A stretch of 34,851 nt of DNA from an uncultured Oscillospiraceae bacterium (GTDB lineage: Bacteria > Bacillota > Clostridia > Oscillospirales > Ruminococcaceae). The first letter of the stretch is position 1. Every line of letters begins with the position of its first letter. Location of the stretch: the NCBI GenBank assembly GCA_900547455.1, contig URGV01000020.1:1-34851 (forward strand), written 5' to 3'. The translations under genes were made by a program, and so were the position numbers. This document shows positions 10,037-31,115 of this stretch, in pieces. Below the pieces are notes generated by a model. It saw nothing but the letters and a program-made list of their open reading frames with translations, was not told the DNA's origin and did no database searches.

Positions 10037-10055
10037 GCTTGACCGGCAGGATGAA

Positions 10056-11433: not shown

Positions 11434-11484
11434 GCGGATAAATTTTTCCAAACTGTAAAATATCCGACAAGCCCCCGGCTTTCT

Positions 11485-11513: not shown

Positions 11514-11572
11514 AAATCTGATTACTGCAATCAATCGCGTGATGCGGAAAATACAATATTGGGGGTACAACA

Positions 11573-13246: not shown

Positions 13247-13257
13247 AGAATAAAATA

Positions 13258-13289
13258 AAAACTGCCGCAAGTGCTGCGGCAGTTTTTTT
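13258..13289 (+). terminator. Terminator of the peptide-binding lipoprotein gene
   Basis: ACTGCCGCA (13261-13269) pairs with TGCGGCAGT (13275-13283), flanked by an A-run and a T-run. Confidence 0.93.
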
Positions 13290-13358
13290 ATGCGGCAAGA
13301 GGAATAAGCGCGGCGGCCACGCCACATACTAAAGAAAAATTGGCTGTGGTGATATGTT

Positions 13359-13766
13359 GTGTTAAGAAAATGTACGAACGTTTTGATTTTATTTTTGTTC
13401 GGGGCCATCAGCTACTCGCTGTTGGAGATTATCTGGCGGGGCTTCACCCACTGGAGCATGTTTGTGCTGGGAGGGTTGTGTTTTTTGCTGGTGAGTCAGG
13501 TGGCGGTGAGCTGCTGCGGCAGGCTGCCGCTGTGGTTTTGCTGCGTGGTCAACACCCTGCTCATCACTGGGCTGGAGTTTGTGACCGGGTGCGTGGTCAA
13601 CCTGGGATTTGGATGGAATGTCTGGAACTACACACACCAGCCGCTCAACCTGATGGGACAGGTCTGTATCGGCTTCACCGCGCTGTGGTTTTTGCTGAGC
13701 GTTCCGGTGACCGAGCTTGCCTTCCAGGTGCGCCGCCGCCTGCAGGGGAAAAAGGCGACCGAATAG
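13359..13766 (+). CDS. Small membrane protein, putative ABC transporter permease family
   Basis: A 135-aa integral membrane protein with about four helices and a basic tail (RRRLQGKK). The sequence contains LLEIIWRGFTHWSMFVLGG, then NTLLITGLEFVTGCVVN and WNVWNYTHQPLNLMGQVC. This arrangement matches the small 'putative ABC transporter permease' family (PF06541) of Firmicutes, whose role is undefined despite the name. The start is a GTG with only a weak GTGGTGAT upstream. The gene ends 8 bp from the convergent radical SAM gene with no clear terminator between. Confidence 0.7.
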   Translation: MLRKCTNVLILFLFGAISYSLLEIIWRGFTHWSMFVLGGLCFLLVSQVAVSCCGRLPLWFCCVVNTLLITGLEFVTGCVVNLGFGWNVWNYTHQPLNLMGQVCIGFTALWFLLSVPVTELAFQVRRRLQGKKATE

Positions 13767-13774
13767 GCGCCTTG

Positions 13775-14668: not shown

Positions 14669-14701
14669 GGCGGCGCTCCTTTAGCATGGTGTTTTGTAGA
14701 C

Positions 14702-14731
14702 AGTATAGCAGAAGCGGGGGCCTCCCCGCAA
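14702..14731 (-). promoter_or_regulatory. Promoter of the radical SAM gene
   Basis: On the minus strand, TTGCGG (14726-14731), an 18-bp spacer and TATACT (14702-14707). Confidence 0.6.
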
Positions 14732-14803
14732 GGGGAATTTGACAGGGACTGGTGTGCCCCCAGAGGCTTTATGCAGGAACCTGTTTCTGCACAAAACCTG
14801 CGG

Positions 14804-14833
14804 TTGCTCAACAGGGCCCTTTTTTGCTATAAT
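14804..14833 (+). promoter_or_regulatory. rlmD promoter
   Basis: TTGCTC (14804-14809), an 18-bp spacer and TATAAT (14828-14833). Confidence 0.65.
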
Positions 14834-14888
14834 AAAAAAAGAACAAGACCTTGTGTCGACAGATTGCTTTGGGAATGGAGAAAGGAAT

Positions 14889-16517
14889 ATGTTACATAAA
14901 AATCAAATCGAGCAGGCCACCATCACCGCGATGTCCTCGGACGGCAACGGCATCGCCAAGATCGATGGGATGGTGGTGTTTGTCCCCTACACCGCGGTGG
15001 GGGACCAGCTGCAGGTGCGCATCGTCAAGGTGCAGAAAAACTTTGCCTTCGGCATCATCGATAAATTGCTGCAGCCCTCCCCTGACCGAGTGGAGGACCG
15101 CTGCCCAGTCTATAAAAAATGCGGTGGCTGCGCCTTCCGGCACATCAGCTACGACGCCGAGCTGCGCCACAAGGCCCAGTTTGTAGAGGACAACCTGCGG
15201 CGCATCGGGGGTCTGGAGCCAAAGATGCTGCCCATCACCCCCTCGCCGCTGCAGCAGGGCTACCGCAACAAAGCCCAGTACCCTATCCGGGAGGAAGATG
15301 GAGAGATTGTGGCGGGCTTTTTTGCCAAGCGCAGCCACCGGGTTATCTCCTGTCCGGGGTGTGATCTGCAGCCGGCCTTTTTTGAGCAGATTCTGGAGTA
15401 TACCCTCGGCTTCGCGCGCCAGCACTGCATCTCCGCCTACAATGAAGAAAGCGGCAGAGGGCTTTTGCGCCATCTCTATCTGCGGTACGGTGAGCAGTCG
15501 GGGCAGGTGATGGTGTGCCTGGTGCTCAATGGAGACAGCATGCCGCACGAGAGCGCGTATGTGGACGGGCTGCTGGAGATCTGCCCGCAGGTGGCCTCGG
15601 TGGTCATGAATATGAATCGCGAACAGAACAACGTCATCTTGGGAAACAGCTGCCGCACCCTCTATGGCAAGGACACCATCGGGGACAGCCTGTGTGGGGT
15701 ACGGGTCGCGCTTTCGCCGCTGAGCTTCTACCAGGTTAACCGCCAGGCAGCCCAGAAGCTGTACGAGCTGGCCGCAGAGCTGGCGGATTTTCGTGGAGAC
15801 GAGCTGCTCGTCGACCTCTACTGCGGTGCGGGTACCATCGGGCTTTCGATGGCGGGGAAGGTGCGAGAGCTTGTCGGGGTGGAGATTGTGCCGGACGCGG
15901 TCGAGAACGCCCGCGAGAATGCCCGCAACTGTGGGGCAGTCAACGCCCGCTTTCTCTGCGCGGATGCCAAGGAGGCTGCTGCACAGCTTGCCCGAGAGGG
16001 GCTGCGGCCGGACGTCGTGGTGGTGGACCCTCCTCGCAAGGGCTGCGACCCCGAGGTGCTGCGGGCGATTGCCCAGATGGGGCCGGAGCGGCTCATCTAC
16101 ATCTCCTGCAACAGCGCGTCGCTGGCGAGGGACTGCAAGGAGTTGGCCGCCCTCGGCTACCGGCTGGAGGTTGCTGCGCCAGTCGACCTCTTTCCGCGGA
16201 CAGCGCATGTGGAGACGGTTGTTCTCTTAGGTAGGGAATTAGAGAAAAGCCGCGAACATGTCTACTTGGACTATGAGCCTTCAAAAGAAATTGATCTGCC
16301 CGGCGGTGCGACCTATTCCGAGATGAAACAATGGATACAGGCCGAATACGGTTTGAAGGTGTCCAGCTTGTATATCTCCCAGGTTAAGAGAAAATGTGGT
16401 CTGGATGTTGGCCAAAACTATAATCTATCAAAGAAGGAAGATGCCAAAGTGCCGCAGTGCCCGCCGGAGAAAGAAGCGGCGATTGAGGCGGCTTTGAAGC
16501 ATTTCAAGATGATCTGA
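14889..16517 (+). CDS. rlmD: 23S rRNA (uracil-5-)-methyltransferase with element-derived C-terminal tail
   Basis: A 542-aa RumA/RlmD-family enzyme that methylates C5 of a uridine in 23S rRNA using SAM. It has a TRAM domain (about 5-60), the Fe-S ligands C72-x5-C78-x2-C81 (CPVYKKCGGC) plus C155/C158, the SAM loop DLYCGAGTIGLSMAG and the catalytic Cys407 in YISCNSAS. The ordinary family end is HVETVVLL, near residues 440-447. From E442 (base 16212) the chain continues 101 residues into a tail ending in the motifs GLKVSSLYISQVKRK and CPPEKEAAIEAALKHFKMI. The tail lies on the mobile element side of the attachment site. The ATG was chosen for GGAGAAAGGAAT; the longer frame from 14739 crosses the promoter. 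Confidence 0.93.
   Translation: MLHKNQIEQATITAMSSDGNGIAKIDGMVVFVPYTAVGDQLQVRIVKVQKNFAFGIIDKLLQPSPDRVEDRCPVYKKCGGCAFRHISYDAELRHKAQFVEDNLRRIGGLEPKMLPITPSPLQQGYRNKAQYPIREEDGEIVAGFFAKRSHRVISCPGCDLQPAFFEQILEYTLGFARQHCISAYNEESGRGLLRHLYLRYGEQSGQVMVCLVLNGDSMPHESAYVDGLLEICPQVASVVMNMNREQNNVILGNSCRTLYGKDTIGDSLCGVRVALSPLSFYQVNRQAAQKLYELAAELADFRGDELLVDLYCGAGTIGLSMAGKVRELVGVEIVPDAVENARENARNCGAVNARFLCADAKEAAAQLAREGLRPDVVVVDPPRKGCDPEVLRAIAQMGPERLIYISCNSASLARDCKELAALGYRLEVAAPVDLFPRTAHVETVVLLGRELEKSREHVYLDYEPSKEIDLPGGATYSEMKQWIQAEYGLKVSSLYISQVKRKCGLDVGQNYNLSKKEDAKVPQCPPEKEAAIEAALKHFKMI
16212..16219 (+). other. Left attachment core (attL)
   Basis: GAGACGGT in frame in rlmD, encoding E442-T-V within the conserved HVETVVLL. 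It is matched at 25347-25354 in the recombinase gene, also in frame. The sequences diverge on both sides, so the crossover lies in or next to these 8 bases. Confidence 0.75.
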
Positions 16518-16551
16518 TAGATTGCTCTTAGATTCTGATCCGGAGGCAGAA

Positions 16552-16590
16552 CCAGCCACCGCAAAGCGGCTTGCACTTGGCGGTGGCTGG
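16552..16590. other. 10-bp inverted repeat after rlmD
   Basis: CCAGCCACCG (16552-16561) pairs with CGGTGGCTGG (16581-16590), with a 19-base loop. There is no T-run; it may be a pause or decoy structure or a recombinase-related site. Confidence 0.35.
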
Positions 16591-16612
16591 CGGCGGTGCT
16601 ATACTGGGAATA

Positions 16613-16667
16613 CGACGGTGAGGTTCTTTGGAGGATTGCTCCTGAGTTCCTCACCGTCGGCCTTTTT
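16613..16667 (+). terminator. Terminator downstream of rlmD, inside the element
   Basis: CGACGGTGAGG (16613-16623) pairs with CCTCACCGTCG (16649-16659), followed by GCCTTTTTA. It would insulate the element from rlmD transcription. Confidence 0.75.
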
Positions 16668-16928
16668 ATGGGCAGTGCCGCCGACAGGTTCAGTCAAGTG
16701 TGGCGGTCAAATTTTGCTCAGATTGCAAATAAGAAGCCTAAAGGCACAGATACACGAGAAACGAAGAAAAATTGCACAGCGTAAACGATAGGCGCACATT
16801 TCGCTATATTATAAGACGAACCGCAACTGCACTATGTAGCTGTGGTTCGTCTTTTACTTTTGCCTGTATTCGGGCGGGCGGCAGCCCGTCCCCATTCCGT
16901 CCAAACACACTTGCACCAGCGTTTCTTC
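16668..16928. other. Non-coding left end of the element
   Basis: No supportable gene occurs here. A terminator-like stem AAGACGAACC (16813-16822) with GGTTCGTCTT (16844-16853), followed by TTACTTTT, is the only clear structure. A TATATT/TATTAT element at 16805-16812 just before it has no matching -35. Confidence 0.6.
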
Positions 16929-17160
16929 TTACACCCTTTTAGACTATGGAGTGTAAAGGGTGTAAACGGTGTAAAATTTTTTGTCAAGTGCCGAGAACCC
17001 TTGAAAATAGGGGGCCATCCCACAGTGGGCTTGTGTGGGATGGCCCAGAACGCAACGGTGTAAACGGTGTGAAAAAACGCTTCCTACAAGCAAATTCACA
17101 CCGTTTTAGCAATAGCATACACAACAGAAACGGTGTGAACGTATTGACTTCACACCGTTT
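16929..17160. repeat. Iteron-like ACGGTGTRAA repeat cluster, putative replication origin
   Basis: The core ACGGTGTRAA appears at 16966, 17055, 17064 and 17130 on the plus strand, and as its complement TTCACACCGT at 17095 and 17149. An AGGGTGTAA variant forms an 11-bp inverted repeat (16929-16939 with 16955-16965). Copies at 17055 and 17064 are in direct 9-bp tandem. The cluster directly precedes the Rep gene, the usual place for Rep-binding iterons and a double-strand origin. Confidence 0.7.
17012..17046. other. Perfect 13-bp hairpin, candidate nick-site cruciform
   Basis: GGGCCATCCCACA (17012-17024) pairs with TGTGGGATGGCCC (17034-17046) around a 9-base loop. It lies among the iteron-like repeats. 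Rolling-circle origins often expose the Rep nick site in such a loop, so this is the best candidate for one (inference). Confidence 0.5.
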
Positions 17161-17172
17161 CTACGTTACAAT
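17144..17172 (+). promoter_or_regulatory. rep promoter with overlapping operator
   Basis: TTGACT (17144-17149), a 17-bp spacer and TACAAT (17167-17172). The -35 sits within a perfect 12-bp inverted repeat: AAACGGTGTGAA (17128-17139) and TTCACACCGTTT (17149-17160). Binding of Rep or another repressor there would block the promoter. Confidence 0.75.
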
Positions 17173-17205
17173 GCAAGAAGAAACAGTGTGAATCGAGGTG
17201 GGCAT

Positions 17206-19164
17206 ATGGCATACAAAACGAAAAACAGTGTCAAGGGTGAACGCAAGCTCGGCTTGCAGGCCGTAAAGGAAATGGAAGCCGCTCCGGGATACGATCCCCA
17301 GGCTACGTTAGCTCTGGCACAGGCAAATTTGGATGCTTTTGGTACGCTGGATGATCTGGATGATGCGTCATTTATCGCCTGCATGAATGATATGCGGGCA
17401 AATCACCCGGATATTTATCCTGTGTTCTGGTGGTGGCGGAAAGCCGAAGAACAGGCTGGACGTCGCCAGGAAGAAGATGGTGAAGGGACTGAATCCAGAT
17501 ATAAATTTTTCATGGTGACGCAGTTTCTGCGCGACCCTTTCGCTGTCGAATGGGAAGATGACAGGCAAACGCTGAAACCCGGCGTGGCCCCTTGGATTGA
17601 TACGCCTCAGATTGAAGCCGGTCTTGACCACAAGAGCATCAAGCGTTGGTGTTGGATTTGGCATGATCGCGATATTTACACTGAAGAGGATGAAATCGCT
17701 GACCGAACCGGGCGAATCAAAGCAGGAGATCGAAAGTTCAAACATGCGCACATTGTGCTTGAAGTTCCTGGCAAAGTGCCGGTTTCGACTATCGCTCGCT
17801 GGTTCAAGGTACCGCCGCAGCAGGTGACGATCCTGCGCGGACGCGGGGCTTTTCTCGATGGTTCCGAATACCTCGTGCATGAAAGCCCTCGTGCGGTCGA
17901 ACAACACAAGACACACTACGATGACGATGAGGTTCATACTTCACCGGGTTTTGATTTCCGCAAAGAGCTGACCGATTTGCAGGCACATAGAGCCAAATTC
18001 GGCAAGCGGTCAGGAGAAATGACGCCAGCGGATACCATGCGGATGCACGTCATGCTGGATGGCTGGACGATGAAACAGTGCCGCGAGGATGATCCGCTCA
18101 CATTTTCAAAGATACGGAATACATTGCCTCCTTTACGACTTGACTATATGATGGATGCACCACCTTGCCCTTTTAGGCTCAACATTTATGTGGACGGCCC
18201 CGGCGGCATTGGCAAATCGGCTTATTGTGAGTATATTGCACAAAGTTTATTTTCGTTCGTAGATGATCCATTTTTTCACGTTGGGAACGATGAGCGTGTT
18301 ACATTTGACGGTTATGATGGTGAGCCTGTTATTATCTGGGATGATATGCGAGCTATAGACTTTATTAAACACTTTGGCAACAATGGAACTTTCCGTTTGT
18401 TTGATCCGCACCCAAAGAAAATGGCAGAGCAGGCAAAACATACACGTGTTATTTTGAACAACGCCTTAACTATTATTAACGGCGTGGATTCTTTTGACAA
18501 ATTTATTTCTACACTTGCGGGTGAGTACATCGATGCGAAAGGCTATCATCATCACGCTGAAGATGCAAATCAGGCGTGGAGACGTTTTCCGATGATTTTA
18601 TGCGTTCGGGAAAACGATTTCGATATTTTGATTAACCAGGGCTTCATCAATAAAGACCTAAGCTCTATTCAAACACTAATTACTTATTCTCATGTACGCG
18701 GGAGCATGAAAGCTATCATCGAAAGATTGGACGGGGCAGCAAAACAAAAGGCTTTTGCTGGATTTGTCCAACCGGTGGTAAACGCCGCAAAAATGATCGA
18801 AGACAAACATGATGATAAGATTTCTGATCCCGATCAGATTCCGCCGGAAATGATGCCCGTTGTTGAATCGGCTGAAGATCGTTTTATGCGTGAGTGCGCT
18901 GAGTACGAGGAGCGGCGCTTCAATACGCTGGTATCATTCGGCCATTGGTTCTGGGATTCCCCCGCCGGTGGCTGGGCGGAATACACTAAAATGTATCCTG
19001 CTGCCAAAGTGCGCCCACAAGAAGAATATGAATTTTTGCACAATCTGCAATGGCCGACAATCCGAGATGCGATTAACAGATATGTAGACGGCGAACTGGT
19101 AGCAACATACACAGAGCAGATTATTCGGGATACAATCGAGATGGTGTGGAACGGACAGTTATAA
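17206..19164 (+). CDS. Replication initiator: HUH endonuclease fused to SF3/AAA helicase
   Basis: A 652-aa Rep. The N-terminal half has a rolling-circle HUH signature: H180-A-H182 in FKHAHIVLEV, preceded by WIWHDRDIYTEEDE, and a catalytic tyrosine candidate Y222 in SEYLVHESP. The C-terminal half has a Walker A motif at 331-338 (GPGGIGKS, K337), then PVIIWDDMRAIDF as a Walker B-like segment, and RVILNNALTIING as a possible motif C. Rep would nick the origin and unwind it, letting the excised element replicate and be maintained before transfer. An HUH nuclease fused to an SF3 helicase is also the plan of CRESS-DNA virus Reps and related bacterial plasmids. The ATG has GAGGTGGGCAT upstream. Confidence 0.8.
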   Translation: MAYKTKNSVKGERKLGLQAVKEMEAAPGYDPQATLALAQANLDAFGTLDDLDDASFIACMNDMRANHPDIYPVFWWWRKAEEQAGRRQEEDGEGTESRYKFFMVTQFLRDPFAVEWEDDRQTLKPGVAPWIDTPQIEAGLDHKSIKRWCWIWHDRDIYTEEDEIADRTGRIKAGDRKFKHAHIVLEVPGKVPVSTIARWFKVPPQQVTILRGRGAFLDGSEYLVHESPRAVEQHKTHYDDDEVHTSPGFDFRKELTDLQAHRAKFGKRSGEMTPADTMRMHVMLDGWTMKQCREDDPLTFSKIRNTLPPLRLDYMMDAPPCPFRLNIYVDGPGGIGKSAYCEYIAQSLFSFVDDPFFHVGNDERVTFDGYDGEPVIIWDDMRAIDFIKHFGNNGTFRLFDPHPKKMAEQAKHTRVILNNALTIINGVDSFDKFISTLAGEYIDAKGYHHHAEDANQAWRRFPMILCVRENDFDILINQGFINKDLSSIQTLITYSHVRGSMKAIIERLDGAAKQKAFAGFVQPVVNAAKMIEDKHDDKISDPDQIPPEMMPVVESAEDRFMRECAEYEERRFNTLVSFGHWFWDSPAGGWAEYTKMYPAAKVRPQEEYEFLHNLQWPTIRDAINRYVDGELVATYTEQIIRDTIEMVWNGQL

Positions 19165-19172
19165 TTCACTAC

Positions 19173-19200
19173 TTGCGTTCTGCATGATTTACGGTAAACT
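19173..19200 (+). promoter_or_regulatory. Possible promoter of the coiled-coil gene
   Basis: TTGCGT (19173-19178), a 16-bp spacer and TAAACT (19195-19200). The -35 and the next bases (TTGCGTTCTG) recur at 19590. Confidence 0.45.
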
Positions 19201-19224
19201 GAAATCAGAAGTGAGGTGATTCAA

Positions 19225-19542
19225 ATGGCCAAATCAAGCGCCGACTTGAAAAAGGAAGCGGCCACTCTGCGGGCAAAACTTGCCGCAGTTCAAAAAGAGG
19301 CCCGCAAGATGAAGAGACTGGAAGATCAGCAAGCCGCCGAAGAACAGCGCCAGCGTGATATACAGTTTGCTCTTGAGTTCGTGGAGATGGCAAAGGAGAT
19401 GTATTTTCGGGATGGCAATCGAAGCTATTTTGATTACATCTCTGAGAAGATGGCTGAAAAGCAAGCCGCCGCACAACCTGCAACTGATTTAACAGAACAG
19501 CAGCCCGTGAATCAATCTGCGGGCTATGCACAGCAGATTTGA
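19225..19542 (+). CDS. Small coiled-coil protein of the element
   Basis: A 105-aa soluble protein. Residues 5-45 are a charged coiled coil (DLKKEAATLRAKLAAVQKEA); then comes a helical FALEFVEMAKEMYFRDG and a Gln/Ala-rich, likely disordered C-terminus. The ATG follows GAGGTGATTCAA. I recognise no family. Its place between rep and the relaxase suggests an accessory role in mobilization, such as an oriT auxiliary protein (inference). It has its own terminator. Confidence 0.7.
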   Translation: MAKSSADLKKEAATLRAKLAAVQKEARKMKRLEDQQAAEEQRQRDIQFALEFVEMAKEMYFRDGNRSYFDYISEKMAEKQAAAQPATDLTEQQPVNQSAGYAQQI

Positions 19543-19545
19543 CCT

Positions 19546-19580
19546 AAACCCCGTTGGGAAGAACCCGACGGGGTTTATAA
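19546..19580 (+). terminator. Terminator of the coiled-coil gene
   Basis: AAACCCCGT (19546-19554) pairs with ACGGGGTTT (19568-19576), followed by ATAATTT; the T-run is short. Confidence 0.7.
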
Positions 19581-19589
19581 TTTAGGGGC

Positions 19590-19617
19590 TTGCGTTCTGA
19601 ACATTTTGTGGTATGTT
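19590..19617 (+). promoter_or_regulatory. Possible promoter of the leader/relaxase unit
   Basis: TTGCGT (19590-19595), a 16-bp spacer and TATGTT (19612-19617), sharing TTGCGTTCTG with the site at 19173. Confidence 0.4.
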
Positions 19618-19688
19618 GCAGGTAAAGGAAGGTTTGCCGCCCGGCTGGAAACGTAGTTTCCAAAGAGGGAGCCGACGGCAGGAGGACG

Positions 19689-19757
19689 ATGGGTTTGTTT
19701 ACAAACCCTGAGGACATGCATACTGGGTTTGTAAACGACCCCCGCGGCAGGAGGTGA
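19689..19757 (+). CDS. 22-aa leader ORF coupled to the relaxase gene
   Basis: The ATG lies six bases after a strong AGGAGG and opens 22 codons. The peptide begins MGLFTNPEDMHTGFVNDP and ends GRR before TGA. Its last codons and stop (AGGAGGTGA) are themselves the ribosome site of the relaxase gene, whose ATG is at 19764. So translation of the leader would run over the relaxase ribosome site. I know no family for it. Two mutually exclusive hairpins within it (19691-19736) suggest a regulatory leader. Confidence 0.55.
   Translation: MGLFTNPEDMHTGFVNDPRGRR
19691..19736 (+). promoter_or_regulatory. Alternative hairpins upstream of the relaxase, candidate attenuator or oriT
   Basis: GGGTTTGT-TT-ACAAACCC (19691-19708) is a self-contained palindrome. 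GTTTACAAACCC (19697-19708) can instead pair perfectly with GGGTTTGTAAAC (19725-19736). The two structures cannot form together. A third hairpin, TGGAAAC-GTA-GTTTCCA (19646-19662), lies just upstream. Relaxase origins of transfer often have such repeats. Confidence 0.5.
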
Positions 19758-19763
19758 AGCGAT

Positions 19764-21167
19764 ATGGGTTGGAAATGTGCGCCGCAAGTGATGGGCTTGG
19801 TGAGAGGTGAACCGAAGCAAGGGCAGAAACATCGTGCGAACATCCGCAAGATTGCGATGGAAGCTGGATACGAGCGAGCATCGAAATCGGATACGCTGGA
19901 TAAGAACCGGTCGAGTAAAAACCATTATGACGGATATCGCAGCGGCTTACAATTCGCCGCTGCTATGGAACAGGAAGCCTCTAAGTATCGTGTCAAAGTG
20001 AATGGAAAAACTAAAGATAAAAAGCCAGTCGTGCGTGAAAAAGGTCTGCCGCATAATGCTGTGATCGGTTGGGCGGTGATCTATAATCCGCCCGCCGAAG
20101 TTTGTGCCGCATGGACAGACGAAGATTATCAAAAATTTTACGCAGACTGTCGGGAGTGCATGGCTGAAATTGAACCGCGCTTGTTCCGCCGTGATAACAT
20201 TCGAATGTCTGCCGAACACTTTGACGAAGGCATTCCGCCTGATGAAAATTCGGGGGTGATCGACCGTCATTTGCATGACCTCGGAGTATCGAAAGATGCA
20301 GATGGACGCTATTGCGGAAATCTTATAGATGCAAAGCTCCTGATTAAAATCAATGAACGTTTCCCTGCCCTGATGCGTGAGCGCGGATGGGATATGGATG
20401 ACCTTGACCGCACAGACTTTGAACGAGCCAAGACCGACAAAGAATACGCCAGCGAGCGAAACGCAAAACGTCGGCAATCTGGTCTTTCTGTTAATAAACA
20501 CCTGGGCAAGAAAGCTCGTGAGATGGCTGAGGATGCCGCAGAGCTTGTTGAGCAGGCAGAAGCATTGAAAGCACAGATGGAAACCGATGCCACTGCACGT
20601 CAGCAGCAGTTGGATTTGATTGCACAGCAGCAAGAAACCACACGCAAAGAGCAGGAAACCATCGCCCAGCAGCAGGAAGATATACAGAAAAAGCTGGATG
20701 GTCGAGATAAGGGGCAGCGCCGCTTGCTGAAATTCATTTACAATTTATATCAAAATCTTAGCGGCGAGCGTGCTGCATTCCGCACATACTCTGAGGGTGT
20801 TGAGATGTTCAAGGCCGCCATGGATTCGTTTGTAGAACGCACGACGACAGAGGCGCGAACGAAAGCGCAGGAAGAAGCAGCTGCTGCATTTCAAAAGAAA
20901 GAAGATGCGCTGGAAGCCCAGAAATCAGTTTTGGATGAATTGGAGCAGCTTAGAGATAAGCTACAATCGTCCACAGATACGGACGCCAGTAGAAAACGCT
21001 TTATGGAAGCTCATACGTTTAGAGATGGCCGCACGCTGGAAGATGTCTATCAGGCGTCTATTCAGCAGAAGTGGGAACGTGACGCTGCGTTCATTAGTCG
21101 TGCATCTGAGCTGACAGATGAATATGACCGGTTGAGTCAAGGTGTGGAGCAGCAAGAAAAGCAATGA
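19764..21167 (+). CDS. MobV-like relaxase / plasmid recombination (Pre/Mob) protein
   Basis: A 467-aa protein. Residues 1-240 resemble the Pre/Mob (MobV) domain: a basic N-terminus with GQKHRANIRK, then HNAVIGWAVIYNPP, RMSAEHFDEGIPP and RHLHDLGVSKDADGRYCG, and a GWDMDDLDRTDFERAKTDKEYASER-like block. The remaining half is a long coiled coil rich in Gln, Glu and Lys (about 240-400). Relaxases of this group nick oriT and pilot the strand in conjugative mobilization. The usual HxDE-x(n)-PHxH metal site is not exact: here H-F-DE-G-I-P is followed by a longer insertion before RHLHD. It could be a divergent subgroup. The ATG is preceded by AGGAGGTGA. Confidence 0.65.
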   Translation: MGWKCAPQVMGLVRGEPKQGQKHRANIRKIAMEAGYERASKSDTLDKNRSSKNHYDGYRSGLQFAAAMEQEASKYRVKVNGKTKDKKPVVREKGLPHNAVIGWAVIYNPPAEVCAAWTDEDYQKFYADCRECMAEIEPRLFRRDNIRMSAEHFDEGIPPDENSGVIDRHLHDLGVSKDADGRYCGNLIDAKLLIKINERFPALMRERGWDMDDLDRTDFERAKTDKEYASERNAKRRQSGLSVNKHLGKKAREMAEDAAELVEQAEALKAQMETDATARQQQLDLIAQQQETTRKEQETIAQQQEDIQKKLDGRDKGQRRLLKFIYNLYQNLSGERAAFRTYSEGVEMFKAAMDSFVERTTTEARTKAQEEAAAAFQKKEDALEAQKSVLDELEQLRDKLQSSTDTDASRKRFMEAHTFRDGRTLEDVYQASIQQKWERDAAFISRASELTDEYDRLSQGVEQQEKQ

Positions 21168-21171
21168 TATT

Positions 21172-21206
21172 CGGCACCTTTTTGGAGGTGCCGGATTGCT
21201 TTTTTG
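21172..21206 (+). terminator. Terminator of the relaxase gene
   Basis: CGGCACCT (21172-21179) pairs with AGGTGCCG (21186-21193); GATTGCTTTTTT follows. Confidence 0.85.
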
Positions 21207-21224
21207 GCCATTTTATGATACACT
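21196..21224 (+). promoter_or_regulatory. Promoter of the restriction-modification/recombinase operon
   Basis: TTGCTT (21196-21201), a 17-bp spacer and TACACT (21219-21224), overlapping the end of the relaxase terminator. Downstream, ACACG and CGTGT form a loose inverted repeat near 21236-21259 that could be an operator for the RHH protein. Confidence 0.45.
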
Positions 21225-21275
21225 ATTACACAAGTACACGATAACACAAAATCGCGTGTTGAGAGGAAAATCAAA

Positions 21276-21428
21276 ATGGCAGAACGAAACATGGTAAATT
21301 TGACAATCACGATGACAAAGGAAGAGCGCAAGGCGCTCAAGCAGATTGCATTGGATAAGGATATGACTGTTTCTGCCCTTCTGCGTGAATGGCTGAAAGA
21401 ATATCAGGCAAAGGAGGCAGAGCAGTAA
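21276..21428 (+). CDS. Ribbon-helix-helix regulator
   Basis: A 50-aa protein: a short strand (NMVNLTITMT), then two helices (EERKALKQIALDKDM and VSALLREWLKEYQAKEAEQ), the size and pattern of CopG/Arc ribbon-helix-helix DNA-binding proteins. The ATG follows GAGAGGAAAATCAAA. Its stop overlaps the start of the methyltransferase gene (TAATG), so the two are translationally coupled. It is the first gene of the R-M/recombinase operon and probably autoregulates it, or it could assist the relaxosome as other small RHH proteins do. Confidence 0.8.
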   Translation: MAERNMVNLTITMTKEERKALKQIALDKDMTVSALLREWLKEYQAKEAEQ

Positions 21429-22555
21429 TGGCGAGGAATGCTGATTTAGGTGCCGCAAGGACTGCTAAGAAAGATGAATTTTATACGCAGTTGACGGACA
21501 TTGAAAAGGAAATGCGATACTATCGCAAACACTTTCAAGGCAAGACGGTGCTATGCAATTGTGATGATCCGTTTGAGAGCAACTTCTTTAAGTATTTTGC
21601 GCTGAACTTCAATCGTTTAGGGCTGAAAAAGCTGGTCGCAACTTGCTACCATTCATCCCCGATTGCAGGGCAGCAGTTACAATATGGTTGTGACGCAGAC
21701 GGCCAGATGACTTTTTACTTTGAAGATAAGGGGGCGGAAGAGAATAAAAGCAAGCGTCCTTATAAGGCCGTGGTCACTCAAGTATATGACAAAATGGGTG
21801 ACGGCGGTGTGGACATGCTGGATGTGGCAGAACTGTTCCGCTCCGGCGAAAATGAGTTGGTAGAATTGGAAGGTGATGGAGATTTCCGTTCGCCTGAATG
21901 CCTGGCTTTGCTGGATGAAGCGGATATTGTAGTAACTAATCCGCCGTTTAGCCTGTTTAGAGAGTATGTGTCTGTTCTGGTGGAACATGGTAAGCATTTC
22001 ATCATTATTGGTAATGTGAATGCAATCACATATAAAGAGATTTTCCCTCTCATCAAAGAGGATAAACTGTGGCTTGGTGCAAGTATTCACTCAGGTGACC
22101 GGAAATTTTATGTTCCTGATGATTATCCTCTGAACGCCTCAGGGTGTGGTATTGACGAGGATGGTCGACGTTATATTCGGGTAAAAGGTGTACGCTGGTA
22201 CACAAATCTCGATATGAAACAGCGTCATGAAGAATTGATTCTGGTTAAGCGATATAATCCAGATGAATATCCTACATATGATAACTATGACGCTATCGAA
22301 GTGTCTAAAACGGCTGATATTCCATGCGATTATGATAAAATTATGGGGGTTCCTATTACATTCTTGGACAAGTATTGCCCGGAGCAATTCGAAATTGTGG
22401 GGCGTGCAGATGCAAATATTGCGAATGAAAACAATATTTATCATATCGACGGCTTTAAGGACAAAGGCGGTGCTCCATTGCTTTTAGGAAAGTTTGTTTA
22501 TAAACGCATTCTGATTCGCAACAAACACCCTGAGCCGCCGAAAGAGGTGAAATGA
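21428..22555 (+). CDS. EcoRI-type adenine-specific DNA methyltransferase
   Basis: A 375-aa protein that fits the adenine-specific methyltransferase EcoRI family (PF13651). It has NADLGAARTAKKDEFYTQL at the N-terminus, TVLCNCDDPFESNFFKYFA, then the N6-adenine catalytic motif TNPPF (170-174, N171) preceded by EADIVV, and C-terminal pieces VPITFLDKYCPEQFEIVGR and YKRILIRNK. It transfers a methyl group from SAM to adenine in a specific DNA site, protecting the host and element DNA. The ATG at 21428 overlaps the RHH stop and has AAAGGAGG before it. The next gene, 1 bp away, encodes a DUF262-HNH protein, the likely cognate nuclease. Confidence 0.9.
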   Translation: MARNADLGAARTAKKDEFYTQLTDIEKEMRYYRKHFQGKTVLCNCDDPFESNFFKYFALNFNRLGLKKLVATCYHSSPIAGQQLQYGCDADGQMTFYFEDKGAEENKSKRPYKAVVTQVYDKMGDGGVDMLDVAELFRSGENELVELEGDGDFRSPECLALLDEADIVVTNPPFSLFREYVSVLVEHGKHFIIIGNVNAITYKEIFPLIKEDKLWLGASIHSGDRKFYVPDDYPLNASGCGIDEDGRRYIRVKGVRWYTNLDMKQRHEELILVKRYNPDEYPTYDNYDAIEVSKTADIPCDYDKIMGVPITFLDKYCPEQFEIVGRADANIANENNIYHIDGFKDKGGAPLLLGKFVYKRILIRNKHPEPPKEVK

Positions 22556-22556
22556 T

Positions 22557-23666
22557 ATGCAGATCAATGAACTAAAAGTAACTGTCGGTGAAGTTTGTGA
22601 GGGATACTTCAACGACGCAGAAGAAGGCGTTGTCGGTTACGACGAGCGCCTTGATATAAGACCGAAGTATCAGCGCGAGTTCGTTTACAAGGACGCTCAG
22701 CGTGATGAAGTCATTCGCACTGTCATGAAGGGCTTACCTCTCAACGTGATGTACTGGTGCAAGGTGAAGAAAGAGGATGGCTCCGACGGGTTCGAGGTGC
22801 TGGACGGACAGCAGCGCACGATTTCTCTGTGTGAATACGTGGACGGCTCTTTCTCTGTGGATGACAAGTATTTTTATAATTTGCCAGCCGACAAGAAACA
22901 GCAGATTCTTGACTATCCTCTGTTCGTATATGTGTGTGATGGTACGGACAGCGAAAAGCTGGAATGGTTCCGTATTATCAACATTGCAGGCGAAGAATTG
23001 ACCGATCAGGAGCTGCGGAACGCCGTCTATGCCGGTAGCTGGACTTCTGACGCAAAGCGGTATTTCTCCAAGACCGGCTGCGCGGCGGATCAGCTTGCAG
23101 GTGATTATCTGAAAGGTTCCAGTATCCGGCAGGAATATCTGGAAACAGCTATTTTCTGGGCAGCCAGCGCCGAAGGAAAAACCATTGAGGCTTACATGGC
23201 CGAACATCAGAATGACCCCAGTGCGGTGCAGTTGTGGAATTATTTCCGCTCTGTCATTGACTGGGTACAGGCAATCTTTCCGAAGAAGCGCAGAGAAATG
23301 AAAGGGCTGCCGTGGGGGCTTTTCTACAATCAGCATGGCAAGCGAACAGACCTTGACCCGAAGAATCTGGAAGCAGAGATCCAGCGTCTCATGGGTGATG
23401 AAGATGTAACCAAAAAATCCGGCATTTATGAGTATTTGCTGACAGGCGAAGAGAAAAAGCTGTCAATCCGCGCTTTTGACCGGCGGGATGCCTTGGCTGC
23501 TTATGAAAAACAGGGCCACAAATGTGCAATCTGTGGCGAAGAATTCGAGTTTGAGCAGATGCACGCCGATCATATTACCCCGTGGAGCAAAGGTGGCAAG
23601 ACTACTCCAGACAACTGTCAGATGCTTTGCCGGGATTGCAATTTAGTGAAAGGTGCGCAACTGTAA
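22557..23666 (+). CDS. DUF262-HNH restriction endonuclease
   Basis: A 369-aa two-domain protein. Residues about 30-260 are a DUF262 (ParB/Srx-like, GmrS-type) domain with RPKYQREFVY and the nucleotide-binding DGQQRT motif at 83-88, plus FRIINIAGEELTDQELRNAVY. The C-terminus is an HNH nuclease: C323-x2-C326, H336-A-D-H339, and C358-x2-C361 ligands (MHADHITPWSKGG and LCRDCN). DUF262 domains in GmrSD and SspE hydrolyse NTP and control a C-terminal nuclease, which is DUF1524 there; here it is a classic HNH. It probably cleaves unmodified DNA as partner of the methyltransferase upstream. The stop TAA is directly followed by the recombinase ATG. Confidence 0.88.
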   Translation: MQINELKVTVGEVCEGYFNDAEEGVVGYDERLDIRPKYQREFVYKDAQRDEVIRTVMKGLPLNVMYWCKVKKEDGSDGFEVLDGQQRTISLCEYVDGSFSVDDKYFYNLPADKKQQILDYPLFVYVCDGTDSEKLEWFRIINIAGEELTDQELRNAVYAGSWTSDAKRYFSKTGCAADQLAGDYLKGSSIRQEYLETAIFWAASAEGKTIEAYMAEHQNDPSAVQLWNYFRSVIDWVQAIFPKKRREMKGLPWGLFYNQHGKRTDLDPKNLEAEIQRLMGDEDVTKKSGIYEYLLTGEEKKLSIRAFDRRDALAAYEKQGHKCAICGEEFEFEQMHADHITPWSKGGKTTPDNCQMLCRDCNLVKGAQL

Positions 23667-25652
23667 ATGGCACAAAAGAAATTGCGTTGCTATCTTTATA
23701 CTCGGGTATCCACACAGATGCAGGTGGACGGATACAGTCTGGATGCACAGCAAGACCGACTGACAAAGGAGGCAGCTCACCGCAGTATGCAGGTGGTTGC
23801 CACCTTTTCGGACGAGGGAAAATCCGGCAAGAATACCACCGGCAGGCCGCAGTTTCAAGCCATGATGCAACGGATACAGAACGGCAATGAGGATCATGTT
23901 GATTATGTGCTGGTGTTCAAACTGTCCAGGTTTGGCAGGAATGCCGCTGATGTGCTGAACAACTTGCAGATCATGCAGGATTTCGGTGTCAATCTCATCT
24001 GTGTGGAAGATGGGATTGATTCCGCCAGTGCCGCCGGAAAAATCCTCTTTCCTGTTCTTGCCGGTGTCGCTGAGCTGGAGCGTGAAAACATCCAGGCACA
24101 GACGATGGCCGGACGTTGGCAGAAGGCCCGTGAAGGCAAATGGAACGGCGGTCAAGCTCCATATGGCTATCGGATCGAGGATGGTATGCTTATCATTGAA
24201 GAATCCGAAGCCGCCCTCGTTCGGTTAATTTTCGAAAAATATGTTCAGTCTAATATGGGCATAAACGGCGTTGCTAAATGGCTGAATGAAAACGGGTATA
24301 GTAAGCAGGCTCGTCAAAATGGGATATACAGCCGGATTTCAACCACCTTCGTGAGGGGGGTATTGGACAATCCAGTCTATGCCGGAAAAATCGCCTACGG
24401 ACGCCGGAAAAGTGAGAAAATCGAAGGCACACGAAATGAGTACCATACCGTCAAACAGGCTGAATATGAAATATTTGACGGCAAACATGAAGCTATTATC
24501 CCGGACGATCTTTGGCAGGCCGCGCAAGTAAAACGGGGTTTGAACGCCTACAAGCGGGAAAAAAGATACAGCCCGGAACATGCTCATATCCTTTCTGGTC
24601 TCGTCAAATGCCCTGTCTGCGGTGCGCCGATGTATGGTGTAGTGAACCGGAAGAAGAAAAAAGATGGTTCCGGCGAATTCTACACAGATATGTGGTACTA
24701 TATCTGCAAGAATACCAAAACCGTAAGCGGCCAGCGCTGCACATACACAAAGCACATCCGGCAGGACGCGGTGAATGAGCAGGTGCGCCGTGTAGTCCAG
24801 GAAGCGCTGCGGAATATGGATTTCACAGCGGACATTATGAAATCCATCGGAACCGACGCCAATCTGGACGCTTTACAGGCGGAAGCTGATACTCTCACTG
24901 CTGCCAAAAAGAAGGAAGAACGCCAGAAGGCCAAACTGCTATCGAAGATTATGGAGCTTGATGCCGACGATGATCTCTACGACAAAATGTACGATGACCT
25001 GCAAGGGCTGCTGCGTCAGCATATGAAGCGCATCACCGAATTGGACAGCAAGATCAATCAGGTGAGTATCGCTATTCAGAACGCAGGCAGCAAGGCCGCT
25101 ACGGCTGAGGAAGTATATGCCACCATGCGGATTATCGTGGACATGATGGACATTATGCCGGAGCGTGACGAGCAGGAAATCATGCACGCATTGCTTGACA
25201 GCGTACAGATTTATCCTGAACGGCAACCGAACGGCCTCTGGATCAAGAGCGTTCGTTTCAAAGTTCCCCTTGAATTTGACGGTGTTTCGTCGCAAGACGT
25301 GATTATCGACAATGACGACAATTCCCTACCTAACGCAAGTAATGATGAGACGGTAGTACTTTTGTCCAAACTCAATACCAAGCAACATATCGAGGTGGAG
25401 TTGAATTTGGACGAGCTGGATTTGACCGCTGCGGAAAGCAAAGCTACCTATGAAGAGATTAAGGAGTATGTGCTGGAACATACAGGTTTGAAAGTCAGCC
25501 ACCTCTATATCGCCCAAGTCAAACAGAAATACGGAATTATCGAGCGGGAGAACTACAATAAACCGAAGTCTGAGAATTCTAAGCAGCCGAAATGCCCACC
25601 CGAAAAGGAAGCGGCGATTACAGAGGCGTTAAAGTATTTTGGGATGATATAA
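23667..25652 (+). CDS. Large serine recombinase ending in the former RlmD tail
   Basis: A 661-aa site-specific recombinase that integrates and excises the element. The resolvase domain holds Ser15 in LYTRVSTQMQVDGYSLDAQQ, then VFKLSRFGRNAADV, and ELERENIQAQTMAGRWQKA. The recombinase domain includes GGQAPYGYRIEDG and RGVLDNPVYAGKIAYGRR. A zinc ribbon has C315-x2-C318 and two later cysteines, and a coiled coil follows (about 400-470). The native enzyme end is near residue 560. From E561 (base 25347) it runs into a 101-residue tail with GLKVSHLYIAQVKQK and CPPEKEAAITEALKYFGMI, homologous to the tail now on RlmD. That segment is the host rlmD 3' end. The recombinase shares an operon with the R-M genes. 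Confidence 0.93.
   Translation: MAQKKLRCYLYTRVSTQMQVDGYSLDAQQDRLTKEAAHRSMQVVATFSDEGKSGKNTTGRPQFQAMMQRIQNGNEDHVDYVLVFKLSRFGRNAADVLNNLQIMQDFGVNLICVEDGIDSASAAGKILFPVLAGVAELERENIQAQTMAGRWQKAREGKWNGGQAPYGYRIEDGMLIIEESEAALVRLIFEKYVQSNMGINGVAKWLNENGYSKQARQNGIYSRISTTFVRGVLDNPVYAGKIAYGRRKSEKIEGTRNEYHTVKQAEYEIFDGKHEAIIPDDLWQAAQVKRGLNAYKREKRYSPEHAHILSGLVKCPVCGAPMYGVVNRKKKKDGSGEFYTDMWYYICKNTKTVSGQRCTYTKHIRQDAVNEQVRRVVQEALRNMDFTADIMKSIGTDANLDALQAEADTLTAAKKKEERQKAKLLSKIMELDADDDLYDKMYDDLQGLLRQHMKRITELDSKINQVSIAIQNAGSKAATAEEVYATMRIIVDMMDIMPERDEQEIMHALLDSVQIYPERQPNGLWIKSVRFKVPLEFDGVSSQDVIIDNDDNSLPNASNDETVVLLSKLNTKQHIEVELNLDELDLTAAESKATYEEIKEYVLEHTGLKVSHLYIAQVKQKYGIIERENYNKPKSENSKQPKCPPEKEAAITEALKYFGMI
25347..25354 (+). 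other. Right attachment core (attR)
   Basis: GAGACGGT, in frame in the recombinase gene (E561-T-V) and identical to the core at 16212. Sequence to its right, VVLLSKLNTKQHIEVELNL, continues the rlmD-type C-terminus. Confidence 0.75.
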
Positions 25653-25681
25653 GCCTTGTTGCAGCAAAGGAGGCTGCGAGA

Positions 25682-25930
25682 ATGGACAAAATGATTTCCT
25701 GTGAATTCAATATTGACAACGCTTGTGTGGAGCTGCGTTTTGCGGATGGGACGATGATTTCCATTGATACCATTGCTGTGGAGAACGAGGTGGCCGACAA
25801 TATGTACGAACGGTCTGAGTTGGACTATCTGCTCTACAACGCACCGCTTGAATATGCTGACCTGATACTGAACGGCGATCCTGCGAAGTATCTGAAAACT
25901 GTAACCGTATATAAGCCTTTTGAGAACTGA
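25682..25930 (+). CDS. DUF6061 family protein
   Basis: An 82-aa protein: SCEFNIDNACVELRFADG, then MISIDTIAVENEVADN, MYERSELDYLLYNAPLEYAD and a short tail. I recognise it as the DUF6061 family, small acidic proteins common on gut Firmicutes elements and of unknown function. The start has AAAGGAGGCTGCGAGA before it. It lies 29 bp after the recombinase stop, that is, just downstream of the former rlmD end, so it may have been co-transcribed with rlmD before insertion. A terminator follows. Confidence 0.75.
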   Translation: MDKMISCEFNIDNACVELRFADGTMISIDTIAVENEVADNMYERSELDYLLYNAPLEYADLILNGDPAKYLKTVTVYKPFEN

Positions 25931-25937
25931 TCGCACT

Positions 25938-25976
25938 GCCGCCCGTGGGAAAATCCTGCGGGCGGCCTCCTTTTTG
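25938..25976 (+). terminator. Terminator after the DUF6061 gene
   Basis: GCCGCCCG (25938-25945) pairs with CGGGCGGC (25959-25966), followed by CTCCTTTTTG. Confidence 0.85.
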
Positions 25977-25980
25977 AATT

Positions 25981-26000
25981 ATTCGCAAGAAGTTGCGAAT
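25981..26000. promoter_or_regulatory. Palindrome upstream of the HTH gene, possible operator
   Basis: ATTCGCAA-GAAG-TTGCGAAT is a perfect 8-bp inverted repeat 26 bp before the -35 of the next promoter. It could bind the HTH regulator or an activator; it is too far upstream for simple steric repression. Confidence 0.4.
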
Positions 26001-26026
26001 TTTAGATAAGATATAAGCATATTTCA

Positions 26027-26055
26027 TTGACTATATGGCCAGGTGGATGTATAAT
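26027..26055 (+). promoter_or_regulatory. Promoter of the zinc-ribbon/SPFH cassette
   Basis: TTGACT (26027-26032), a 17-bp spacer and TATAAT (26050-26055), 42 bp before the HTH gene. Confidence 0.8.
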
Positions 26056-26097
26056 CATTCCATAGAGTTACAGCAGTGGATCGAGAAAGAGTGAATT

Positions 26098-26325
26098 ATG
26101 AAAATTAGTTATAAAAAGCTGTGGATACAGCTGATAGAAAAGGAAATCTCTCCGGCCACGCTTCGGAAAGATCTAAATATTGCCACGGGAACCATGACCA
26201 AATTGCGAAAAAATGAAGAAGTGGCGCTTTCCGTATTGTTGCGTATCTGCGAGTATCTAGACTGTAATATCGGAGATATTTGTGATGCGGTGCGTACGGA
26301 AGGTAACGATACCTTTGGCCAATAA
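26098..26325 (+). CDS. HTH regulator (Xre/Cro family, YozG-type)
   Basis: A 75-aa DNA-binding protein. It has a Cro/C1-type fold: LWIQLIEKEISPATLRKDLN, TGTMTKLRKNEEVALSVLLR, then ICEYLDCNIGDICDAV, the common end of the small 'helix-turn-helix, winged' HTH_26 proteins. It is the first gene of the cassette, 23 bp before the zinc-ribbon gene, and probably regulates it. The ATG lacks a strong ribosome site (GAGTGAATT), which may keep its level low. Confidence 0.85.
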   Translation: MKISYKKLWIQLIEKEISPATLRKDLNIATGTMTKLRKNEEVALSVLLRICEYLDCNIGDICDAVRTEGNDTFGQ

Positions 26326-26348
26326 TCACATTTGGAGGGGACAAGAAA

Positions 26349-28091
26349 ATGGCTGCTTTTACATCGGGAAATGGGGCATCCAAACAGCATCCAAACGACA
26401 AAAAAGTGATGTTTTGCCCTTATTGCGGAACCAAACTGGATGATGGCGCACGATTTTGCAAAAACTGCGGAGAGGCTGTCTCTGACACTGCGGAACAGAC
26501 TCCAAAGGTCCAACAGACCGAATCTCCTGATGGAAATCCTTCAGAACGAAAGACGGTTTACGAGGGCTATATACATAAATGTCCTAACTGTGGTGAAGTG
26601 CTGGATTCCTTTGCGGTAAACTGTCCCACTTGCGGGTATGAATTTAGAGGAGTTAAAGGTGCCATATCCGTAAGAGAGTTTGCAAAAAAATTGGAGGAGA
26701 TTGAGAGCAAAAGGCCGACCAGCAGATTCGGATTTAAGAAGGTGCTTGAAAATCAAAATACCGTCGACGAGACGGATATGAAAAAAATTTCTTTGATTAG
26801 AAGTTTTGTCATTCCAAATACCAAAGAAGATATGCTCGAATTTTTGATTTTGGCATCTTCTAATATCAATTTGCAGAGATATAATGACTTCGATACAATC
26901 TCAGAATCGGAAAAAGCCGTTTCTGATGCATGGCAAGCAAAATTTGAACAGGCATACGAAAAAGCAAAACTGAGCTTTGGCGATACACCGGAATTTGAGA
27001 AAATCCATGCAATATACAAGAAAAAGACCGGAGAGGTCGAAAAAAGCAAGAAGAAACGAGTATATTTTTGGATAGGATTTGTGGGATTCTTCATTATCTT
27101 TATTGTGGGAGGCTTTGGTATCCTTTTTGGTATGGCTGGTTCCGAGAGCAGGGAGATTGCTGCCGAGAATGAGAGACTTGAGGCTATTGTCCAAGAGGTT
27201 TATGATGCTCTGGAGAACGAAAACTTTGTTCTTGCCCGTGCAAAAGCCGCTACATTAGTATTTTCAGGGCCTGACAACGATGAGGCGGAAATTGCCGCTG
27301 AAAAATGGAATACGACAAGGAATGATCTATACAAAACTATTGAAGCGGCAGAAAACAACGCACCAGGGATCAGTTCGAATACAAGCGAGCCAGTCAATGA
27401 TGATAACGATTCATCGAAGCCCGTAAACGAGAACGAACCTGTAAATGACTCAGGCAACAGTGGCAATAAAGAATATGGCGTAATCAGTAGTGCAGATGAC
27501 TCGGTAGAAGTAACAATTCAAGGAAATGATTATCTCGATGTCAAGGAGTTTGGATGGTTCATTAGTGGTGACTATTTGGAAAGTATAATTACGATTACAA
27601 ATAAAGACTCTGAAAATGCCATCGAATTTCCCACATACAGAATTACTGCTTACGATGAGAGTGATAAGGTACTTGGTACAGCAGAACAGGTATTAAGTGT
27701 TATTTACCCGAAGCAGGACTTCTCTTCTTACTCATTATGCTTTGAGCTGACCGAGAAACCCTCAAGAATCGCAGTTTCTGTTTTTACACCAGACGATTAC
27801 AATATTGTATCGCCAACTATGTTGGAGCATTCTGGACACAAGCAGATGGTTGGCAAAAATATTTCTATTAGTGGTGAGTCAGTTACTGGAGAAATTTATA
27901 ATCCTAATGACTATGATGTGGATTCTGCCTTGGTAACAATTATTTTTAGAAACGATAAAGATGAAATCATTTTGGGTGCACTAACATTTGTTGACCAGAT
28001 ACCTGCCGGAGGAAGCGTTCCCTTTGATGTGGCGGTTTATGGACATGGTAGCCTGCCACAACGGTGTGATGTTTTAGCATATCTCTGGTGA
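26349..28091 (+). CDS. Double zinc-ribbon membrane protein
   Basis: A 580-aa protein with two zinc ribbons at the N-terminus: FCPYCGTKL with FCKNCGEAV, then KCPNCGEVL with NCPTCGYEFRG. A soluble helical region follows (about 100-235), a single membrane helix at about 238-262 (YFWIGFVGFFIIFIVGGFG), a short coiled stretch, an Asn/Ser/Asp-rich linker with repeated EPVND-like units (about 340-375), and a beta-rich C-terminal domain that resembles FxLYD-type extracellular modules. Topology is probably zinc ribbons inside, beta domain outside. GGAGGGGACAAGAAA precedes the ATG. It is followed 34 bp later by the SPFH gene. Function is unknown. Confidence 0.75.
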   Translation: MAAFTSGNGASKQHPNDKKVMFCPYCGTKLDDGARFCKNCGEAVSDTAEQTPKVQQTESPDGNPSERKTVYEGYIHKCPNCGEVLDSFAVNCPTCGYEFRGVKGAISVREFAKKLEEIESKRPTSRFGFKKVLENQNTVDETDMKKISLIRSFVIPNTKEDMLEFLILASSNINLQRYNDFDTISESEKAVSDAWQAKFEQAYEKAKLSFGDTPEFEKIHAIYKKKTGEVEKSKKKRVYFWIGFVGFFIIFIVGGFGILFGMAGSESREIAAENERLEAIVQEVYDALENENFVLARAKAATLVFSGPDNDEAEIAAEKWNTTRNDLYKTIEAAENNAPGISSNTSEPVNDDNDSSKPVNENEPVNDSGNSGNKEYGVISSADDSVEVTIQGNDYLDVKEFGWFISGDYLESIITITNKDSENAIEFPTYRITAYDESDKVLGTAEQVLSVIYPKQDFSSYSLCFELTEKPSRIAVSVFTPDDYNIVSPTMLEHSGHKQMVGKNISISGESVTGEIYNPNDYDVDSALVTIIFRNDKDEIILGALTFVDQIPAGGSVPFDVAVYGHGSLPQRCDVLAYLW

Positions 28092-28125
28092 CTTTTGGTT
28101 GGCAAACAAGAAATGGAGGATAGCA

Positions 28126-29445: not shown

Positions 29446-29459
29446 AGGAGAGCAAAGAC

Positions 29460-31076: not shown

Positions 31077-31115
31077 GAAAACACACTGTCAAAAGGGTTT
31101 TTGCTTTGGCGGGGG

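Follow-up and report, generated by a model that had tools for sequence, protein, structure and literature searches.

In-frame exchange of C-terminal tails between RlmD and the serine recombinase of an apparent integrative element in a Ruminococcaceae genome

Introduction

Elements that integrate into the 3′ end of rlmD (rumA) have been described in streptococci, where, according to the available portions of the reports, integrative and conjugative elements (ICEs) reciprocally exchange the 3′ ends of rumA and of their serine integrase gene, with a probable alteration of integrase function (PMC4701971, to which PMC5357655 refers as Ambroset et al. 2016), and where decayed integrative and mobilizable elements (IMEs) with serine integrases are found in accretion (PMC5357655). 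The locus described here belongs to an uncultured Oscillospiraceae bacterium (assembly GCA_900547455.1) and lies in a window of 34,851 nucleotides, this being the whole stretch of contig URGV01000020.1 that was analysed. Its positions 16212-25346 are best explained, with a probability of about 0.87 for this explanation as a whole, as an integrative element of 9.1 kb (element 1 in the following) that encodes a large serine recombinase and would have exchanged the end of this recombinase with that of RlmD.

As in the streptococcal ICEs and IMEs (PMC4701971, PMC5357655; both available in part), a single serine integrase and insertion in rumA (rlmD) are combined with one repeat in rumA, one in the integrase gene and altered C-termini of the proteins. 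Unlike the elements of PMC4701971, in which, in the part available, the replacement is said to shift the frame of both proteins, the present one keeps frame and length, and a conserved exchanged domain or a partner recombinase with a permanent tail is not described in the accessible text of these two papers. In Myxococcus phage Mx8, too, the attachment site of the element (attP) lies in the integrase gene and the new C-terminus alters integrase behaviour, but the enzyme is a tyrosine integrase, whose 112-residue end gives way to one of 13 residues, whereas the window enzyme is a serine recombinase (accessible parts of PMC4701971 and PMC6070905). Streptococcus phage phi m46.1 uses the same gene (rum) and the same region of the bacterial attachment site (attB), and its attB holds the GA dinucleotide used here; it differs in being a phage with resistance genes, and a tail is not described in the accessible part of the paper (PMC4288039). 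The exchange itself is, therefore, already published; new are the conserved exchanged domain, its permanent copies and the exchange between stacked elements, none of which was found described in a literature search that left subscription papers largely outside.

Junctions and tails in the window

The features at the two junctions are given below, L001 (Thermophilibacter) and L002 (Anaerotignum) being two related loci in other hosts.

14889..16517, + strand: rlmD (rumA), 542 aa; body 14889-16211, element-supplied tail from 16212; TIGR00479
16212..16219, + strand: putative attL core GAGACGGT, whose GA at 16212-16213 is the crossover dinucleotide by the GA rule from the L002 junction
16218..16514, + strand: RlmD tail of GRELEK type, element 1's own; same type in L001 and L002
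23667..25652, + strand: large serine recombinase, 661 aa; PF00239, PF07508, PF13408
25347..25354, + strand: putative attR core GAGACGGT; crossover GA at 25347-25348
25353..25649, + strand: recombinase tail of SKLNTKQ type; 92-100% identical to 120 listed tails, then DUF6061

The core GAGACGGT stands at 16212-16219 in rlmD and at 25347-25354 in the recombinase gene, and in both its GAG is an in-frame glutamate codon (core Glu), which is residue 442 of RlmD (from the ATG at 14889) and residue 561 of the recombinase (from the ATG at 23667). Both open reading frames (ORFs) run for 101 residues from the core Glu to the stop, and their tails are 50% identical over 104 columns with six gap positions (BLASTP E = 1e-29), which confirms at the sequence level the shared in-frame core and homologous 101-residue tails of the original prediction. 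The equal length of the two tails is partly a family trait; among the listed tails the length from the core Glu is mostly 100-105 residues, with 114 in a divergent group. The final position of the TIGR00479 profile (NCBIfam rumA, 419 bits) falls on the core Glu, here residue 492 of the longest rlmD ORF, and a Pfam search of the window proteins placed no family on the RlmD tail or on the recombinase tail. In agreement with a change of sequence at the core, the G+C content is 62% in the rlmD body, 47% in the rlmD tail and 45% in the recombinase tail.

Several features of rumA elements are found here: one junction in rlmD (residue 442), the other inside the integrase gene, a reciprocal 3′ exchange and the Resolvase, Recombinase and zinc ribbon domains (PF00239, PF07508, PF13408) of rumA-targeting serine integrases, the zinc ribbon being present in most of these. 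The octamer by itself is weak evidence, being present in five copies in the window (0.64 expected), three of them outside both junctions, so that the case for the swap rests on comparison; two observations go beyond chance, namely that the tails are homologous and that related loci switch sequence at exactly the core.

Crossover point and natural empty sites

In L002, attR reads GATGA/ATCGGT and attL GTGGA/GACGGT (the slash marks the junction), and the sole bases common to both partners at the junction are the GA with which the Glu codon begins. A two-base crossover is typical of large serine recombinases. The L002 recombinase ends in DESVVLMTRCGGQA followed by the stop, while HVESVVLMTRCGGQA followed by the stop is the RlmD end in three of the six other Anaerotignum genomes, one more (CVGQA) differing by one residue; RlmD is untailed in all six, and the L002 flanks, once joined, give a one-piece alignment across the junction to L080 (query 8-1511) and L082 (7-2000). 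Similarly, the L001 recombinase ends in DESVVTLVRR and the RlmD of L257 in HVESVVTLVRR, each directly before the stop, with a 304 bp flank that is 95% identical. RlmD is untailed in 19/19 Thermophilibacter relatives read, where 20 matches became loci (G001 and 19 others), the other 11 were judged by their alignment end alone, and G178, among the matches, is cut at residue 292.

Since L001 and L002 carry the window's element together with its tail and the relatives without the element are untailed, the GRELEK tail belongs to the element. The DNA adjoining the GRELEK tails of these two loci is 91-95% identical to the window's element, and the identity of window positions 16520-21430 (4.9 kb) is 95% to L001 and 91% to L002, in agreement with the earlier view that the RlmD tail is element-supplied. 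Furthermore, among RlmD proteins with bodies 98-99.5% identical among themselves, the SKLN tail is found in six and the GRELEK tail in four, and these two tails are only 57-60% identical.

Judged by these sequence comparisons, the swap is a genuine site-specific exchange that crosses over within the Glu codon, at its GA, and the reciprocal in-frame exchange proposed from the window holds at the GA junctions of L002 and at the empty sites of Anaerotignum and Thermophilibacter. An origin of the tails by duplication or gene conversion inside a genome is highly improbable; the tails are mosaic (window versus L002: identical in the first ~100 bases, 45-59% in mid windows, 76-88% at the end), which does show exchange inside them, but for L001 and L002 such an origin is refuted by the same GA junction in different hosts and by the host-specific ends on the recombinase.

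Predicted excised state and a circular relative

Excision of element 1, as computed for the window, would place the GRELEK tail on the recombinase (661 residues) and the SKLN tail on RlmD (542 residues), both ORFs staying in frame across the junction. A natural circle of a relative is represented by the contig L135 (10,418 bp, terminal repeat of 107 bp), on which the recombinase with its tail in frame is followed by rep, an EcoRI-type methylase, a small ORF, a protein of the 467-aa type described below, a second methylase and a GmrSD-HNH protein (cargo with two methylases; methylase/GmrSD_N+HNH positions 2075-4319 and 9353-10297); rlmD was not found in this circle. The predicted order of recombinase with tail and then rep is, therefore, seen in a relative, and the anticipated difference of the recombinase C-terminus between the integrated and the circular state is borne out by the host ends of L001 and L002 versus the tail of L135.

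Probable origin of the recombinase's tail in an older second element

To the right of element 1 the window holds the following features.

25592..25930, + strand: DUF6061 gene; conserved part 25682-25923, PF19537; by inference the first gene of a second element (element 2)
25653..31100, no strand: part of the putative element 2, with genes for HTH_26, zinc-ribbon, SPFH and DUF6591 proteins
31116..32792, − strand: serine recombinase of another type, with a weak match to DUF4368

The original prediction took the recombinase tail for the original tail of RlmD, which it probably is not. Among the six genomes of the window's genus (that of the nearest genome, G158), five were matched and one was without a match at the cut-off; RlmD ends 10 and 8 residues past the core Glu in G193 and G194, carries other tails in G158 and G192 (the latter cut inside the tail), and in G052, excluded from the untailed count, runs off the contig shortly past the core. 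DUF6061 appears to mark an older element: it lies directly 3′ of the tail in L200, in L145 and in genome G118 (L189 and L105), and 5′ of the tail in L038. The stretch 25653-31100 has 40-49% G+C per kb versus 57% for 1-16211.

As G193 and G194 are untailed and the right side resembles the left end of another element, the SKLN tail probably stems from an earlier insertion. Most likely, element 2 inserted first, giving RlmD the SKLN tail, and element 1 then entered the attL of element 2; we infer that the SKLNTKQ-type tail was the tail of RlmD prior to the arrival of element 1 and was brought by element 2. Both L142/L206 and the contig that holds L143 and L145 show stacking of this kind, with a tailed recombinase followed by a short-ended one. 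It had been held against the proposed swap if element-free rlmD genes ended near HVETVVLL; such ends do occur in the genus at large (G193, G194), but the site as it stood just before insertion would nonetheless connect rlmD with the sequence from 25355, an arrangement not seen among the genomes compared.

The exchanged domain

Purifying selection acts strongly on the exchanged part, a single domain of ~100 residues. Six close tail pairs have a ratio of non-synonymous to synonymous substitution rates (omega, dN/dS) of 0.011-0.039; the recombinase body has an omega of 0.068-0.087, and rep and the gene of the 467-aa protein one of 0.132-0.140, these at lower divergence. The window's recombinase tail and four RlmD tails differ by a dS of 0.67-0.95 and a dN of only 0.008-0.018, their protein identity being 96-98% (97-99 of 101 residues). 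Conservation at such synonymous divergence, with an omega below that of the recombinase body, disfavours the idea that the tail is passive, any open sequence past the core being sufficient and tail homology reflecting mere repeated insertions; although RlmD proteins and integrated recombinases often lack a tail, as this idea would have it, it appears improbable.

Permanent copies of the domain are found in viral loci. In 52/72 viral tail loci (nine of the 72 came from earlier scans), which form about 22 groups at 90% identity, a recombinase bears the domain without a core, usually with extra residues behind it, and a second recombinase lies downstream; this downstream recombinase holds the core in 39 of the 52, 12 are cut or short, and one (L242) is without the pattern. 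These permanent copies on partner recombinases argue that the domain belongs to recombinases. Tandem recombinases, the downstream one with a variable end, occur in L128-L130, L133, L197, L202 and most of L207-L254.

In the structural model of the window's recombinase, the body extends to about residue 546, a low-confidence (disordered) linker spans residues 549-590, including the crossover Glu 561, and the tail forms helices at 595-606, 612-621 and 645-657.

Distribution of tailed RlmD proteins and recombinases

With the recombinase tail as query, 7990/7991 scored candidates matched at E<=0.001, the best 120 comprising 114 RlmD-type proteins, three serine recombinases (P0016, P0032, P0036) and three others (P0003, P0021, P0038); with the RlmD tail, 7880/7982 scored candidates matched, and the best 120 were 114 RlmD-type proteins and six recombinases. 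In P0003, P0021 and P0038 the tail is joined at ETVVLL to unrelated proteins (PF02743, PF02900 and one with no domain), perhaps at secondary insertion sites.

Among the best 120 relatives of the recombinase, those of the rlmD site are alike up to the core and divergent after it. The core motif was detected in 90, with a pattern that misses some core-bearing recombinases (P0283, P0284, P0311) and in a set that includes fragments, and the distance from the Glu to the end is <=25 residues in 58, 26-60 in 12 and >90 in 20; the short ends past the core (VVLMSRKDK, VCLLSRKDK and others) resemble those of RlmD. Recombinases with other C-termini and no core (L003, L004, P0250, P0261-P0264) look as if another target were used, and the identity of such coreless enzymes to the window's recombinase is 63-69%. 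P0241, a 96% related recombinase, reads in frame past the core into acetyltransferase domains (PF13302, PF00583).

A related recombinase was detected within 40 kb at 8/27 tailed versus 1/118 untailed rlmD-family places (Fisher p 4e-6, kinship not corrected). At most nine candidates were scored per genome in this search and many contigs are short; five of the 150 rows were dropped because the alignment ended below residue 430, and contig-cut places reaching residue 430 counted as untailed. At the sole untailed place near a recombinase, in G153, a tailed rlmD-family paralogue (C6:2266286-2267692) sits nearer to the recombinase, and this paralogue, ~7 kb from the regular untailed rlmD, seems to be a target as well. 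In L020, L035 and L047 a stop or a frame change separates RlmD from the tail, perhaps in decaying fusions.

Proposed mechanism and role of the tail

In the mechanism proposed, attP would lie inside the recombinase gene, in the disordered linker between the recombinase body and the ~100-residue C-terminal domain, and the end of rlmD, with its conserved HVE(T/S/C)V, would serve as attB. Crossover at GA, in the same codon phase of both genes, would transfer the element's tail to RlmD, and the recombinase would receive the host sequence beyond the core, often a few residues and a stop, or else the full tail of a resident element. In the window, as relatives suggest, element 1 most likely entered the attL of the older element 2, which would leave both proteins with a full tail. 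An attP in the integrase gene is also known from archaeal SSV-type integrases, where integration splits the gene rather than replacing its end in frame.

The streptococcal remark may thereby be extended to serine recombinases that target rlmD in Bacillota and Actinomycetota (Anaerotignum, Thermophilibacter) and in one metagenome-assembled genome labelled Gastranaerophilales (L009), the recombinase receiving its C-terminus from the host or from an element already in place. This would explain the thousands of tailed RlmD proteins in databases and would make a tail on RlmD a simple marker of an occupied site; recombinase sequences from integrated elements can carry host or neighbour ends, a point to consider in selecting such enzymes as genome tools. 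It also brings to attention a strongly conserved domain without assigned function.

The permanent copies, the presence of the tail in the element and the Mx8 precedent favour a role in recombination, and we tentatively regard the tail as an accessory recombinase domain, carried by RlmD while the element is integrated, that may affect the efficiency of integration or excision. At somewhat less than even odds, it could act as a state switch, much as the original prediction suggested, setting the activity or direction of the recombinase, so that loss or exchange of the tail on integration would bias the enzyme as is reported for the Mx8 integrase (PMC4701971, PMC6070905; accessible parts). The omega of 0.011-0.039 in close tails, the tails kept on partner recombinases and the loss of the tail by single recombinases upon insertion into untailed hosts are consistent with a switch, against which it counts that in the window a full homologous tail is present in both states and that the recombinases of L172 and L203 are out of frame with the tail.

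A more doubtful extension sees in the tail a portable recombination-control domain whose carrier would report the state of the element, namely the recombinase in the circle and RlmD, under the rlmD promoter, after integration; partner recombinases would keep a permanent copy, and a resident element would lend its tail to a stacking newcomer, thereby altering the newcomer's recombinase. The out-of-frame arrangement in L172 and L203 and the many tails that are separate ORFs also admit a role via RlmD or as a separate protein. It is unlikely, however, that the tail acts mainly in RlmD, or as an element protein made from the host rlmD promoter, with the recombinase fusion as a by-product: although 114 of the best 120 matches to each tail are RlmD-type proteins and some elements keep the tail open yet out of frame with the recombinase, many RlmDs have no tail, including those of 6/6 other Anaerotignum genomes and 19/19 Thermophilibacter relatives read, and the permanent tail is found on recombinases.

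Several observations weigh against the overall explanation of the locus as an integrative element with an exchanged, functional recombinase domain. No related recombinase was detected within 40 kb at 19/27 tailed rlmD-family places, with at most nine candidates scored per genome and many short contigs; the recombinases of L172 and L203 read across the core in another frame, end 64 bases past it and are not fused to the tail; many tails form ORFs of their own, with no recombinase ORF immediately upstream; and the S. suis record YS387 has an untailed rlmD, with a tail 4.8 kb inside. The empty site and the circle are known from relatives alone, the genomes compared including none of the window's species, and the L135 recombinase is only 48% identical to that of the window. 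Finally, the pairs compared for omega differ in divergence, distant tail pairs reaching up to 0.165 or having saturated dS, and structure comparison of the tail gave no known fold explaining it.

Other genes of element 1

Between the two junctions, upstream of the recombinase gene, the following genes were annotated.

17188..19164, + strand: Rep-like protein with origin-binding and helicase-type ATPase domains; PF01719, PF00910
19764..21167, + strand: 467-aa protein; no Pfam family at E<=0.1
21389..22555, + strand: EcoRI-type adenine methylase (cargo); PF13651, E 1.9e-152
22557..23666, + strand: GmrSD N-terminal domain and HNH nuclease (cargo); PF03235, PF01844

Pfam detected no conjugation domains in the five proteins of 16.5-23.7 kb, and the element is not classed as an ICE. 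The product of 19764-21167, which is 92% identical in L001 and L002, may be a mobilization protein. The methylase and nuclease genes are without a match in L001 and L002. The Rep-like protein, 98% identical in L001 and 89% in L002, combines Rep_OBD and RNA_helicase domains (17188-19164) within an integrative element, and the cargo of an EcoRI-type methylase and a GmrSD_N+HNH nuclease (21389-23666) has the look of a restriction or defence pair.

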